From the NCBI RefSeq assembly GCF_000246985.2, contig NC_022084.1, forward strand, positions 682,701 through 746,700: a DNA stretch of 64,000 bases, given 5' to 3'. Made by a program: the position numbers and the translations under genes. Shown piece by piece: positions 41,560-48,074 of the stretch. Source of the stretch: Thermococcus litoralis DSM 5473 (GTDB lineage: Archaea > Methanobacteriota_B > Thermococci > Thermococcales > Thermococcaceae). Under the pieces are notes generated by a model, which ran no database searches, was not told the DNA's origin, and saw only the letters and a program-made list of their open reading frames with translations. How positions within the stretch are numbered: position 1 is the stretch's first letter; every line of letters begins with the position of its first letter.

Positions 41560-42768
41560 CTACCCCGGCCTTTCGGGCGGGGCTTCCTGCTTCATAAGGA
41601 AGACTTGCCCCGTGATGACTGCCTCAAAAGGCACGACACGGGGTAGAGGTCTTCCCTCCACAGGCAATCCGGGTCGTCCCAACCCTTCATCCAAACCCCT
41701 TCTCAATATGTTGAAGGAAGCGTTCAAATCTCTATCCATCACCAGCCCACACTTCGGACAGCGAAAAACCCTCTCCGAAAGAGGCAATTCCTCCACAACG
41801 AACCCACAACGGGAGCAAGTCCTCGAAGTGTAGGCTGGCTCAACAAAAACAACCCTCCGACCAGCTCTCTCAGCCTTGTCGGAGAGTATCCTAATGAAAG
41901 CACCAAGAGAGGAATCGAGCAAACGACGGTTGAGACTTCTATGACCGTTCTCAACCATATTCTTCGGTTTTAGGCTCTCCACGACAATAATGTCGTAATT
42001 CCTGACGTAGTAGAGGGCGAGCTTATGGAGAAAATCATTTCGCTGGTTCGTTAGCTTTTCATAAGCTTTAGCTAATTTTATCCTCTCCTTCTCCCAGTTC
42101 TTCGAACCTTTTTGCTTCCTTGAGAGCCTTCTCTGTATCTTCTTAATCCTTTCGAGGGATTTCTCAAGGAACAGAGGGTTTTCAAAAGCGTTGCCGTCGC
42201 TATCAACGACGAAATTAGCCACCCCCAAATCAATCCCGACTGCTCTACCCGTTTTAGGTAGCGGTTCTGGTTCTTCCTCAACCTGAAAGATAGCATACCA
42301 TTTTCCACTCTTCGTCCGTTTTATGATTACTCCTTTAATCCTGCCCTTAATTTTCCTGTGGAGCTTTATGGGAACTTCTCCAATTTTGGAAAGGTGCAGT
42401 CTCTTCCTCCCTTCATCGAGCTTGAACCCGCTTTGATTGTAGTTCAGAGTCTTCCAGCTATTCGGCGAGGTTTTGTATCTTAGCTTTCCTATCTTATGCC
42501 CGTTCTTTTTTAGAACCTTCAGGACGGTCAGGTTGTTCCAGAGTTGGTGGTTCACCATTTGGAGAACTTTAGAGTAGACTTCCTTGAGTTCTGGCTTTTC
42601 CTTCTTCAGCTCGACGATTAGCCTTTGGGTGTCGGTTCTCCTGAGTGAAGGGTTTTCCCGTATTGCCCTCAATAACTCGTTATAGAGCCAGCGACAGAGT
42701 TCCATATGTTGGAGCATCCTTTCCTGCTGTGCTTTTGAGGGATAGATTCTGAAGCGGTAGGAACGCAT
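41560..42768 (-). CDS. tnpB: TnpB, RNA-guided nuclease of IS200/IS605 element
   Basis: A 402-residue TnpB with the complete RuvC-like active site: Asp180 in VGIDLGVANFVVD, Glu264 in IIVVESLKPKNM and Asp347 in GLVMDRDLNASFNI. The zinc ribbon CSRCGFVVEE...FRCPKCG (Cys318, 321, 337, 340) is intact, as is the N-terminal basic helix-turn-helix. TnpB proteins cut DNA next to the target motif guided by an RNA made from the element's right end. ATG at 42768 overlaps the tnpA stop. Confidence 0.93.
   Translation of the reverse strand: MRSYRFRIYPSKAQQERMLQHMELCRWLYNELLRAIRENPSLRRTDTQRLIVELKKEKPELKEVYSKVLQMVNHQLWNNLTVLKVLKKNGHKIGKLRYKTSPNSWKTLNYNQSGFKLDEGRKRLHLSKIGEVPIKLHRKIKGRIKGVIIKRTKSGKWYAIFQVEEEPEPLPKTGRAVGIDLGVANFVVDSDGNAFENPLFLEKSLERIKKIQRRLSRKQKGSKNWEKERIKLAKAYEKLTNQRNDFLHKLALYYVRNYDIIVVESLKPKNMVENGHRSLNRRLLDSSLGAFIRILSDKAERAGRRVVFVEPAYTSRTCSRCGFVVEELPLSERVFRCPKCGLVMDRDLNASFNILRRGLDEGLGRPGLPVEGRPLPRVVPFEAVITGQVFLMKQEAPPERPG
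41563..41582 (-). repeat. Right-end hairpin of the IS element (guide RNA region)
   Basis: CCCCGGCC-TTTC-GGGCGGGG-type hairpin overlapping the tnpB stop codon. In this family the right end is transcribed with the tnpB 3' end into the guide RNA, so about 41550-41700 probably encodes it, with the guide taken from the flanking DNA near 41530-41550. Confidence 0.6.
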
Positions 42769-43178
42769 CAACTTTCCTCACCCTGACTCTCAACGTAGGC
42801 TTTGAGAACGTCGAGGGTCACTTGCCCAGAGGTTGCGAGGAAGTATGAGGGCGACCAGAAGGCGTTTCTCCAGAGTTTTTCCTTCACTTCGGGGAAGTTC
42901 CTGCGTATTTCCCTTGATGTGATTGTCTTTAGGCCGTTGATGTATTTTGGTATGTTGAGGGTGGGTTTTGCCTTGAAGAGGATGTGAATGTGGTCTTGGT
43001 CTGTCTCGATAGCGAGAACTTCTACCTCGTGGGTCTCCGATATTTCGTGGATTTTCTGTTTAAGAAAGTCTATTATCCTGTCGTTGGTGAAAACTTTTCT
43101 GCGGTATTTTACGACTAAAATGAGGTGGTAGTAGAGTTAATAGACTGAGTGTGCTCCCTTGTCGAGTTTGTATTTCAT
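42768..43178 (-). pseudogene. tnpA: TnpA Y1 transposase, inactivated by an internal stop
   Basis: Reading from ATG 43178 gives MKYKLDKGAHSVY, then TAA (43139-43137) where the family has Ser, then LYYHLILVVKYRRKVF continuing without another interruption for about 120 residues to the TGA at 42768. The HUH motif (DQDHIHILF) and the catalytic Tyr region (SPSYFLATSGQVT) are intact. One C-to-A change in a TCA codon would explain the stop. No plausible internal restart was found before the HUH motif, so the protein is presumably not made. Confidence 0.85.
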
Positions 43179-43205
43179 AGTTATCCCAAATTTTGTGTAA
43201 CTATG
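43176..43205. repeat. Perfect 8-bp inverted repeat at the tnpA start
   Basis: CATAGTTA (43176-43183) and TAACTATG (43198-43205) with a 14-base spacer; the inner arm includes the tnpA start codon. Could be a translational control hairpin or binding site. Confidence 0.5.
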
Positions 43206-43272: not shown

Positions 43273-44307
43273 TTAAAAGACATGGATCGCCGTTGCTTTA
43301 AAGCTTAGGTAAACCTCTTTTCCCTCTTGAATCCCCATCTCTACAAGAGAAGAGCGGGTTATAAAAGCTCTAAGCTCAATTCCACCAATATCAAGGGTTA
43401 CCCTCACCAGCGAGCCCAGATCTTCAACCGCTAACACCTTGGCTTTGAACTCGTTTCTTGCAGAGGTTTTTATGGACTCATTGGATATAACGATGTCCTC
43501 CGGCCTTATTCCAACTCTCAGCTTCCCTTTAAACTCCCCCGGTAGCTCTATTGAAATTCCGTTTGCCCTTAATATCCTCCCTTCCGCAATCCCCTCTATT
43601 ATGTTTTCAAACCCAAGAAATCTCGCGACTTCTTCATTTTTAGGCTTGGAAAAGACTTCCCTAACTTCTCCGGTTTGGATCAATTTTCCGTTCAGCATTA
43701 CACCAACTCTATCCCCTAAACTGACAGCCTCTTCAAAAGAATGCGTTACGTGTAAAGCCGTGAAGCTAAGCTCCCTTCTCCAGCGTTTCATCTCTTGAAT
43801 GAGCTTAGCCCTAGTTTGAACGTCCAGATTTGCAAAAGGCTCATCAAGAAGTATAAGCCTTGGCTCCAGTACTAAAGCCCTCGCAATGGCAACCCTTTGA
43901 GCTTCACCGCCGCTCAGCGTTTTTGGTTTTCTGTGCAAAAGATGTGAGATTTCAAGAATCTCTGCAATCTCCCTAATCCTCTTATTGATTTCATTTTTTG
44001 GAATTTTTCTGAGCTTCAATCCGTAGGCTATGTTGTCGTAAACTTTCATATGAGGAAAGAGGGCGTAGTTTTGAGGAATATAAGCTAGATCCCTCTTCTC
44101 CGGTGGAAGAAAAGTTATCTCCTTCTCATCCATAAAGATTTTTCCAGAATCTGGTGTAAAGATGCCAGCGATGAGTTCGAGGAGAAGGGTCTTTCCAGCA
44201 CCACTAGGGCCCAAAATTATGAAGTACTCTCCCCTCTCAACTGAAAATGTTATGTCTCTGAGGTGAAATTCCTTGTAGTCCTTGGAAATATTTTGAACTT
44301 CAAGCAT
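43273..44307 (-). CDS. wtpC: Tungstate/molybdate ABC transporter ATP-binding protein
   Basis: A 344-residue ABC ATPase: [18 protein letters not shown] (Walker A), [32 protein letters not shown] (signature and Walker B), HVTHS (switch), and a C-terminal TOBE-type oxyanion-binding domain. The ATG at 44307 follows GGTGAT. It belongs to the wtpABC importer but is separated from wtpB by two unrelated genes; the stop of the TOPRIM gene lies seven bases before its start, so it is still read on the same message. The IS element begins four bases after its stop. Confidence 0.88.
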
Positions 44308-44314
44308 GACGTTA

Positions 44315-45040
44315 TCACCGGGCAATAGTCTCTAAAAATGTCCTCAACCCCGACTCATCCAAAAACTCCTCAATAAGCCCACGGTTTTCTCTGATTAATT
44401 TCTCAATGAAGTTTCTGTATAGTCCCGACATGGAGTCTCCTTTGTAGTTCCTGGCAATTGCCAAGAGATGCATGACGTCTTTTGGAGTAAGCTTTCTTTC
44501 CAAGTCTTTGCTGAGCTGACTTATTGAGTTTTCTAGCCTTGAAAGATTACTCTCCTTCTTAGCAAGAAGAGTCATTAAGAGCTCAAGTTCTTTTTTTGGT
44601 TCGATGTCTTTTGCATCAAAAGTAACATCTCCAATTCCGAATGGAACAATCGTTATCCCATTTACTAGGAGGTAACCATTTTTTACTTCAGGTTCAAAGC
44701 CTCCTGCCTGCAAGGTGCTTTTAGCCCAGTTTAGAATGTTTTCCTCTGTATCAACGTCTCTAGCCACTCCAATAATAGTAGGCCTATCCTCAAATCTCTC
44801 AACTGCTCTGAAAACTGCCTTAAGAGCCTTTTTAAGGTTATCTTTCCCATTAGCATGCAGTATCACCAACAAAGTTTTGTACTTAATTAAACAGATAGGT
44901 CTTGATAGCTCCTTGTCCTTCGAAAACGGCAGAATCTCACACCCTGCATTGCTCTCCCTAAACCTATAAAACTCCTTTATTAAGGGAAGAAAGAAGCTAA
45001 CATCTGTTCTGCCCTCTAAGAGCAAGAGTCTCACTTCCAT
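44315..45040 (-). CDS. Small TOPRIM-like protein (DUF3226-type)
   Basis: A 241-residue protein. The beginning [19 protein letters not shown] has the TOPRIM glutamate (Glu9) and an Asp (Asp13), and [16 protein letters not shown] contains the DxD (Asp95, Asp97), followed by [25 protein letters not shown] with a further acidic strand. These are the metal-binding residues of TOPRIM nucleases and DUF3226 proteins. The remainder is helical. It starts two bases after the ATPase stop, with GAGGGGAT upstream. Paired with an OLD-like ATPase, it is probably the nuclease subunit of a two-protein system; the nuclease activity is inferred. Confidence 0.7.
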
Positions 45041-45043
45041 TTT

Positions 45044-46129
45044 TCATCCCCTCAGGTCTAGTCCAAGAGTTTCTCTTAGTTCTTGCGATTCTTCAAAGGT
45101 CTCTATTGAGGCTTTTACGTTTCCGTTCTCACGCTTCATATAAATGACCCTTCCCTCTACTTTGCTTTCTAGACCATATTTGATTAGCATGTCAATAAGC
45201 TCAAGACTGTGGGTCGTTAGAAATACTTGGACATTGTTTTCTTTTGCTCCCCTGACAAGAGTCTTAGACATAACTCTTAGAGACTTTGGATGATGGAAGG
45301 CTTCGGCGGAGTCTATGAGAAGATAACCATTTTTCAGAGAGGAAACTACAAGTGCCATGGCTGTCAATGCTTTAAATCCATCTCCCATCACATAATAAGG
45401 TATAGCCTTTTTTGTCCACTTAATGTCTACGTACATAACAGGAGTAATGTTCTCAGGTAATGGACTTAGATTTTGAAACTCTGGATAACCTTTTTTGATT
45501 ATTGAAAAAGCTCTTTCGGTTCCTTTCTCCTTAAATGCCCAAGAATGAGCCCTTTCAATGAACCCGGGAGAAATTATGTCGAAAGGTGTTAAGAATCGTA
45601 CAGGCATTTCAACAAGATACATATCATCACTAGTTGAGAACACTGTAAGTAAGTCACCTTCCTTGGGAAAACCTACATTAACTAGCACAGAGTATGTCTT
45701 TTTTAAAGGGCCAGCTTTCACGATTCCGGGAAGTATAATAAACTTTCCGAGGCCAATGCGTCTTATTGTATCATCATCAATCTTAAGTTCACCCCCCAAG
45801 ATGTCAACGATATTACCCTGTTTTCTGATTTCTACCGAGAATGGAGTGTTATTCTCAACGAATTTGATCTTAGTAGCAAGATAATCTTGATAAAACAGGG
45901 AAGTTACTGAATTTTTTCCAAACCACCCTCTCCAAGTCAATACCTTTGTTAGCACTTCTTGCAATGGATCGTTTTCACTATTCACACCTGCAATACCAAT
46001 AGAAAACGCTTCAATTATGCTTGATTTACCCGCATTGTTTTTGCCCGCAATTACGTTAATTTGGCCAAGATTATTTAGTTCCAACTTCTTTATGCCCCTA
46101 AAATTCTCAATCCTAAAAGATGTTATCAT
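45044..46129 (-). CDS. OLD-like AAA ATPase (AAA_15/AAA_21)
   Basis: A 361-residue ABC-type/SMC-like ATPase: MITSFRIENFRGIKKLEL then Walker A GKNNAGKS (29-36), signature-like YYVMGDGFKALTAM (near 246-259), Walker B LLIDSAEAFHHP (271-281, an altered DEPE) and the His switch TTHSLELID (His307). The central 150 residues are specific. Such ATPases partner with or are fused to TOPRIM nucleases in OLD, Gabija and PARIS systems. A TATA-like CTTTAATTTGG (46160-46170) in the 47 bases after wtpB may give it its own promoter. ATG at 46129 follows GGGG. Confidence 0.8.
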   Translation of the reverse strand: MITSFRIENFRGIKKLELNNLGQINVIAGKNNAGKSSIIEAFSIGIAGVNSENDPLQEVLTKVLTWRGWFGKNSVTSLFYQDYLATKIKFVENNTPFSVEIRKQGNIVDILGGELKIDDDTIRRIGLGKFIILPGIVKAGPLKKTYSVLVNVGFPKEGDLLTVFSTSDDMYLVEMPVRFLTPFDIISPGFIERAHSWAFKEKGTERAFSIIKKGYPEFQNLSPLPENITPVMYVDIKWTKKAIPYYVMGDGFKALTAMALVVSSLKNGYLLIDSAEAFHHPKSLRVMSKTLVRGAKENNVQVFLTTHSLELIDMLIKYGLESKVEGRVIYMKRENGNVKASIETFEESQELRETLGLDLRG

Positions 46130-46176
46130 GAGCATCCCCTTTCAGTATTGGTATTAACCAAATTAAAGCTTTGTCC

Positions 46177-46920
46177 TCAAGCATTTCTCGACCTCCCTAC
46201 AATCCACCTTAGAACAACGAAGATGCTCAAGCTCAGCAGTACAAGGATAACGGAAATCGGCCTTGAAGCCCTCAAACCATAGTTGTTAAAGTACTCCATG
46301 ACCAGAACCTGTGCAGTTTTTGGGTAATATGCAACGATTAGAATCGCACCCACTTCGCTTATCGCCCTTGCCCACGTCATGATGGCACCGCTCAAGATAG
46401 AGGGCATCGCAATGGGAAGCGAAATCGTCAAGAATGCCTTAAGCCTACCCGCCCCTAAGGTTCTTGCCACATGCTCAAGCTTCTCATCTACCGCCAAAAA
46501 CCCGTCTCTGGCGGCATTGATTGTGAAAGGTGCAGAGACAAAAAGCATTGCCATTATTATTCCGAGATAGCTATCCAAAATTTTGTTTGAAAATGTCACA
46601 AGAAGCATTATGCCAACAACGGAGTGTGGGATAACTATTGGGACGTCAACAACGGCCTGAACAAAACTCTTCCCCACAAAATCCTTCCTTGCGAGTATAT
46701 AGCCAAGGGGGACTCCAAAAAGGAGAGAAATAAGCATTGTAGCCGTGGACGTTAGGAGGGAATTCCTAAGAGCCTCTAAGACAATATCATCGTGGAGAAC
46801 ATTTATAATCATTTCCCAGTCCAAAAGCTGCTTCCCTATGATAACGGCTAACGGAAGGAGGATGTACAGAACAAGGAACGTGCCGAGCAGAGCGAAGAAC
46901 CATGTTACGTAATCCCTCAT
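46177..46920 (-). CDS. wtpB: Tungstate/molybdate ABC transporter permease
   Basis: A 247-residue permease with five to six hydrophobic helices and the EAA loop [28 protein letters not shown], of the ModB/WtpB type. Preceded by GAGGTGAG. Follows wtpA by 31 bases in the same operon. Confidence 0.88.

Positions 46921-46951: not shown

Positions 46952-48074
<1,123 letters not shown>

Follow-up and report, generated by a model that had tools for sequence, protein, structure and literature searches.

Gene content of the interrupted wtp operon

In the window, the 64,000-nt stretch of the Thermococcus litoralis DSM 5473 genome (G000) analyzed here, a complete tungstate transporter operon is interrupted by two genes. 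The order, on the minus strand throughout, is wtpA, wtpB, a gene for an ABC/OLD-type ATPase, a gene for a DUF3226 TOPRIM protein, and wtpC (Table 1). The gene order and the NCBIfam equivalogs backing the identities of WtpA, WtpB, and WtpC confirmed the original prediction that an ATPase-TOPRIM pair is placed inside an otherwise standard wtp operon. The two inserted genes are separated by 3 nt, and 7 nt lie between the TOPRIM stop and the wtpC start. The ATPase probably starts at its second ATG, at 46129, since AAGGGG lies just before this codon and the resulting start agrees with the MITS start of the homologues. The motifs cited in the original prediction were present, and their positions were right in the numbering from this start. 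The GC content of the insert was only mildly low (37-41% versus about 41-46%) and was therefore left out as evidence of foreign origin. A TnpB-like gene (41560-42771) and an apparent TnpA remnant of the IS200/IS605 type (window 41560-43200) end just downstream of wtpC.

Table 1. Features of the wtp operon and of the inserted gene pair in the window
Feature	Position	Strand	Evidence
wtpA, tungstate-binding protein	46952-48028	-	TIGR03730, NF003196
wtpB, tungstate permease, left homology arm	46177-46920	-	NF040839
BRE/TATA-like box AAAGCTTTAAT, putative promoter private to the pair	46160-46172	-	TTTAA core shared among loci
ATPase gene, 363 aa, SMC/OLD-type ABC ATPase, PDC-M38A/AbiLi-like	45044-46135	-	Profiles, AlphaFold model, Foldseek
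Walker A GKNNAGKS	46022-46045	-	G31, N33, N34, K37, and S38 invariant in 16 homologues
Hypervariable, cassette-swapped ATPase centre, residues about 81-180, proposed sensor	45596-45895	-	Identity profile
Altered Walker B, IDSAE in place of IDExE (LLIDSAEAFHHP)	45302-45316	-	Conserved in relatives
H-loop histidine (TTHS)	45209-45211	-	H309 invariant
TOPRIM gene, 241 aa, DUF3226, proposed effector nuclease	44315-45040	-	Profiles, fold, likeness to PH0156
Glu9, TOPRIM metal ligand	45014-45016	-	Invariant in 15 aligned homologues
Asp95-x-Asp97, TOPRIM DxD motif	44750-44758	-	Invariant in 15 aligned homologues
wtpC, ATPase of the tungstate transporter, right homology arm	43273-44307 (ATG 44307)	-	NF040840
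Start of wtpC (~100 nt), recombination tract that came in with the pair	44208-44307	-	58-68% identity to G075, 96-99% beyond

A possible private promoter had been suggested near 46160-46170, and a TATA-like box is indeed found there, at about 46162-46172. Its TTTAA core, often AAAGCTTTAA, occurs just past the wtpB stop in 12 of the 17 loci with a pair (by visual count), which belong to different genera, while the other bases of the gap between wtpB and the ATPase gene vary between loci. The pyrococcal pair loci do not have the core, and the gap there is short, different, or absent. The recurrent core resembles an archaeal BRE/TATA box and thus supports a putative private promoter of the pair.

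Motifs and relatives of the two proteins

The ATPase is of the AAA_15/AAA_21 type (Pfam AAA_15, 1.8e-20). In its Walker B motif, Asp-Ser stands in place of the canonical Asp-Glu, with Ser at the position expected for the catalytic Glu; many distant bacterial relatives retain DE at this site (DEFE). GajA has lost hydrolysis and kept nucleotide binding (PMC12796447), and this parallel, together with the Ser residue, makes a nucleotide-gated switch plausible for the ATPase. In the Foldseek search with the AlphaFold model (pLDDT 86), the best matches were retron/Septu PtuA-type ATPases (retron IA and retron Ec83/Ec78), SMC, and Rad50 heads.

Sequence conservation along the ATPase was strongly uneven. 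In blocks of 20 residues, averaged over all pairs of 15 aligned proteins, identity was 65-71% at the start, dropped to 16-27% in residues 81-180, and rose to as much as 80% around the H-loop. Between G000 and G024, the ATPases were 87% identical in residues 1-40, 10-34% identical over most of the centre, and 82-98% identical at the end, with a TOPRIM identity of 77%. The variable centre corresponds to the beta-rich lobe of the ABC ATPase in the AlphaFold model and may recognize a fast-changing partner, for example, a viral trigger. The close pairs are under purifying selection (dN/dS 0.12-0.24).

The product of the second gene matched Pfam DUF3226 (4.6e-14) and has the TOPRIM arrangement of a Glu after strand 1, a DxD after strand 3, and the expected Rossmann-like secondary structure. 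The predicted metal residues withstood the alignment, as Glu9, Asp95, and Asp97 were unchanged, and not missing, across the 15 homologues. The TOPRIM alignment matched the TOPRIM domains of fused OLD proteins (hhalign E 9e-6) and the partners of distant ATPases, a set including PDC-M38B members (hhalign 3.7e-10). In Foldseek, PH0156 was the sole strong match of the TOPRIM model, and no other TOPRIM protein appeared in the top 50. The window protein is 38% identical to the PH0156 crystal structure (PDB 2P62, Pyrococcus horikoshii), with a model TM-score of 0.90. The G006 TOPRIM protein (L047), which has the same operon position as that of the window, matches PH0156 throughout, so 2P62 is the wtp-inserted TOPRIM protein of P. 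horikoshii or of a near relative. PH0156, deposited as a hypothetical protein, thus belongs to the same family as the window TOPRIM, and an orphan structure gains a function hypothesis.

The two proteins were compared with known and candidate defense systems. Among the PADLOC profiles, PDC-M38A was the best match of the window ATPase (1.5e-40, residues 3-362) and AbiLi the second (1.4e-36), and both match 16 of 16 ATPases; the best profile scores therefore fell on defense candidates, in agreement with the original prediction. The kinship it had proposed with PARIS, Gabija, or OLD themselves was not borne out, because PDC-M38 and then AbiLi gave the best profiles, AriB is not the partner, and the two proteins are unfused. 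PDC-M38B matched 12 of 15 TOPRIM proteins, weakly and at the N terminus (2e-4 in the window protein), and MAD4 matched nine of 15 (best 9e-20). PDC-M38 likewise consists of two adjacent genes, an OLD-type ATPase followed by a TOPRIM-like protein, from which the window pair differs by its DUF3226 C-terminal half, its Walker B without Glu, and its fixed wtp address. PDC-M38 is itself only a PADLOC candidate, and our literature search found no functional test of it. The two-gene ATPase and TOPRIM design is also common to AbiL (AbiLi and AbiLii); AbiLii was rejected as the partner, its profile matching one of 15 TOPRIM proteins (E 0.009). For MADS (MAD3/MAD4), the MAD4 profile resembles the TOPRIM proteins, no other MADS genes are present in the wtp operon, and only unrelated papers were found. 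Searches on DUF3226, PDC-M38, PH0156, wtp genes, and Thermococcales TOPRIM defense returned nothing.

In PARIS (AriA and AriB; OLD class 4), the ATPase and TOPRIM genes are split, as they are here, and the ATPase holds and then releases the TOPRIM effector (PMC12409363). The PARIS TOPRIM effector cuts tRNA once a trigger has induced its release. By analogy, the window pair would work in a similar manner, with a putative sensor ATPase and a putative TOPRIM effector. Membership in PARIS was rejected, as AriA (7.7e-21) scored below PDC-M38A and AbiLi, and AriB did not match the window protein and matched one of 15 homologues at 0.002. Gabija GajA and OLD classes 1-3 have the ATPase N terminus and the TOPRIM motif in common with the window pair; membership in Gabija or the fused OLD proteins was likewise rejected, as the window genes are separate and flanked by wtpB and wtpC, with no helicase (UvrD-like GajB) or reverse transcriptase alongside. 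A survey of OLD proteins reported split ATPase-TOPRIM defense (class 4) only from bacteria (PMC12796447), and the present loci form a natural allele series in hyperthermophilic archaea.

Consistent with the original prediction, ATPase and TOPRIM genes are paired in further genomic settings as well. The 58-kb plasmid of Methanocaldococcus jannaschii carries a pair (ATPase 39% and TOPRIM 41% identical; L203:7994-9726) whose neighbors are AbrB and MCM genes, not wtp genes, and whose ATPase is annotated as two ORFs. Among 20 inspected loci of distant ATPases (330-760 aa, bacteria and archaea), 17 have a second gene within a few nt, and nearly all of these partners carry the TOPRIM EGxxD motif; in L133, the called ORF of the partner does not have the motif, and in L145 and L135, the partner appears broken. 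Related pairs adjoin caspase and SIR2-like genes in Methanocorpusculum (L142) and a PDC-S01 candidate in G007 (L121). The window's genome itself encodes a second ATPase and DUF3226-like pair (454 and 238 aa; G000:C1 1761900-1763998; L120:5901-7998), located about 1 kb after a type II C5-cytosine DNA methyltransferase gene, and PDC-M38A is the best PADLOC match of its ATPase. The distant loci and neighborhoods sampled are few and come without a background control. The searched viral contigs gave no TOPRIM relatives and one weak ATPase relative, and the searched phages gave only short, weak ATPase matches.

Distribution of the pair and recombination through the wtp flanks

The close pair was found in 17 of 94 Thermococcales genomes, and the ATPase alone was found in one. 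With the comparison restricted to the 76 genomes with a usable wtpB, the pair was present in 17 (about one in five); it is therefore missing from most wtpABC loci and is not a part of the operon in all Thermococcales. Presence and absence of the pair required at least 13 changes on the tree of the 76 WtpB proteins, which was used as a stand-in for the species tree. All 17 carriers have the pair precisely at the wtpB-wtpC junction, and none of the close copies in Thermococcales is in a recognizable defense island. In 56 of the 59 wtpB loci without the pair, wtpC is directly adjacent with no inserted gene and usually overlaps; the remaining three are G003, with no wtpC beside wtpB, and G081 and G050, in which the contig is cut.

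Two atypical loci were observed. In G023, a lone family ATPase with the Walker B IDLAE lies directly behind wtpC, without a TOPRIM partner (L092:7563-8594). In G001, the ATPase gene is frameshifted at an A-rich stretch, by mutation or sequencing error, and the TOPRIM gene is intact (L035:9285-10350).

Comparison of G000 with its closest sister, G075, revealed a clean insertion, with wtpB 98% identical. Per 100-nt window, the identity was 91-100% over wtpA and wtpB and, on the other side of the insert, 95-100% over wtpC past its first ~100 nt, which fell to 58-68% (about 63%). The first 50 nt of the foreign wtpC start are 88% identical to those of G073, whereas the rest of the G073 wtpC is about 66% identical. 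G073 is a pair carrier of another genus and holds the ATPase closest to that of the window (74%). Foreign edges on both sides were found in G083 compared with its sister G078 (65% at the wtpB end and 59% at the wtpC start). The sisters G018 and G052 agree in wtpB (96-100%), the C-terminal third to half of TOPRIM (98-100%), and the beginning of wtpC (96-98%), and between these shared stretches they carry different alleles (36-75%). In the pyrococci G011 and G007, dS was 0.00 for TOPRIM compared with 0.27 for the ATPase, 0.30 for wtpB, and 0.15 for wtpC. Furthermore, the ATPase and TOPRIM trees disagree on G000, which groups with G073 in the former and with G001 and G024 in the latter, both with good support.

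These sequence comparisons indicate that homologous recombination carries the module between species and exchanges it in situ, with wtpB and wtpC as homology arms. The recombination tracts at the wtp flanks account for both the constant location and the horizontal spread, with no integrase or repeat needed, and a small system can thus keep one address yet move horizontally. In the core defense hotspots of Pseudomonas aeruginosa, defense genes lie between fixed core genes, and homologous recombination has been proposed (PMC10250203); in comparison, the slot described here lies within one operon and holds one system, and the recombination tracts are visible.

The constant position might also reflect a tungsten-tied job, in which the pair acts as a sensor or regulator of tungstate/molybdate import, or as a guard of the wtp system, and hence stays in the operon. 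The 17 pairs between wtpB and wtpC, the lone G023 ATPase just behind wtpC, and the tightly packed, operon-like genes are in line with such a role. We nevertheless consider it rather improbable, because 56 of the 59 other wtpB loci have wtpC adjacent without the pair, the Methanocaldococcus plasmid pair and the bacterial pairs have other neighbors, and a hypervariable ATPase centre would not be expected in the sensor of a single small ion. Moreover, homologous recombination through the flanks explains the address, so no tungsten role is needed. The fixed location is better explained by recombination through wtpB and wtpC than by the earlier suggestion that the operon keeps the module expressed, and the module appears to have a TATA-like box of its own.

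Proposed function of the pair

We consider it fairly likely that the pair is a mobile two-component antivirus (or antiplasmid) ATPase and TOPRIM module, an archaeal DUF3226-type PDC-M38 variant related to AbiL. For such a module, we infer complex formation, trigger sensing, nuclease activity, and a role in defense. The SMC/OLD-type ATPase would bind ATP and hold the TOPRIM protein inactive, and the altered Walker B hints that ATP is bound and not turned over quickly. The variable lobe at the centre of the ATPase would sense a viral protein or nucleic acid state and free or activate the TOPRIM protein, which would then cleave tRNA, other RNA, or DNA by two-metal catalysis and stop the infected cell. 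In favor of the defense reading are the pairing maintained outside Thermococcales, the profile matches, the invariant metal residues, the patchy distribution with horizontal import and allele swaps, the discordant ATPase and TOPRIM trees, the hypervariable ATPase centre, the plasmid-borne pair, the defense-related neighbors of related pairs, and the purifying selection. Against it count the location of all close Thermococcales copies in the wtp operon and outside recognizable defense islands, the recovery of no TOPRIM protein besides PH0156 in the top 50 of the TOPRIM fold search, and the candidate status of PDC-M38.

A toxin-antitoxin or selfish addiction pair with no virus-specific role, in which the ATPase restrains a TOPRIM toxin and recombination spreads both, would have the same anatomy and a similarly wide horizontal spread, and broken copies do exist (the frameshifted ATPase of G001 and the split ATPase on the M. 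jannaschii plasmid). This reading overlaps with the defense reading, but on its own it appears unlikely, as hypervariability confined to the ATPase centre fits trigger recognition better and the profile matches go to defense families.

More speculatively, the antivirus module might constitute a fixed-address, allele-swapping immune locus, in which the trigger-sensing ATPase centre is exchanged across genera and the halves of a metabolic operon serve as permanent homology arms, without an integrase, repeat, or mobile element. The tungsten supply or the transporter might be what is guarded, a target for which the tight operon packing leaves room. Some of these hyperthermophilic archaea are genetically tractable. 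With sister genomes that are set apart by the module alone, or by nothing but its presumed sensor half, allele exchange offers a direct test of trigger specificity.

A housekeeping DNA-repair or cell-cycle pair, composed of a Rad50/SMC-like ATPase and a nuclease, was also weighed. The archaeal OLD protein Cran1, which has a cell-cycle role and not a defense role (PMC12796447), provides a precedent and counts against the defense reading; the resemblance of the ATPase model to Rad50 and SMC heads and the almost universal presence of a DUF3226 paralogue near polB in non-Pyrococcus Thermococcales point in the same direction. By contrast, Cran1 tracks the species tree, whereas the pair is missing from most genomes, nearest relatives included, and shows frequent gain, loss, and allele swap, which makes a housekeeping role very unlikely.

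The DUF3226 paralogue is a protein of ~340 aa that has conserved metal residues and an additional domain of about 100 aa at its N terminus (L050:8145-9176, L052:8176-9180), and its gene adjoins a HAD-phosphatase gene and polB. It was rejected as the partner or source of the pair, as it is related (E 1.5e-26) but lies elsewhere in the genome without a neighboring ATPase (two loci inspected). In G000, the paralogue is split into two frames with an inserted stretch (C1 about 1405150-1406070; L053:7149-8067), which possibly leaves the TOPRIM protein of the wtp operon as the main DUF3226 protein that is still intact in this genome.
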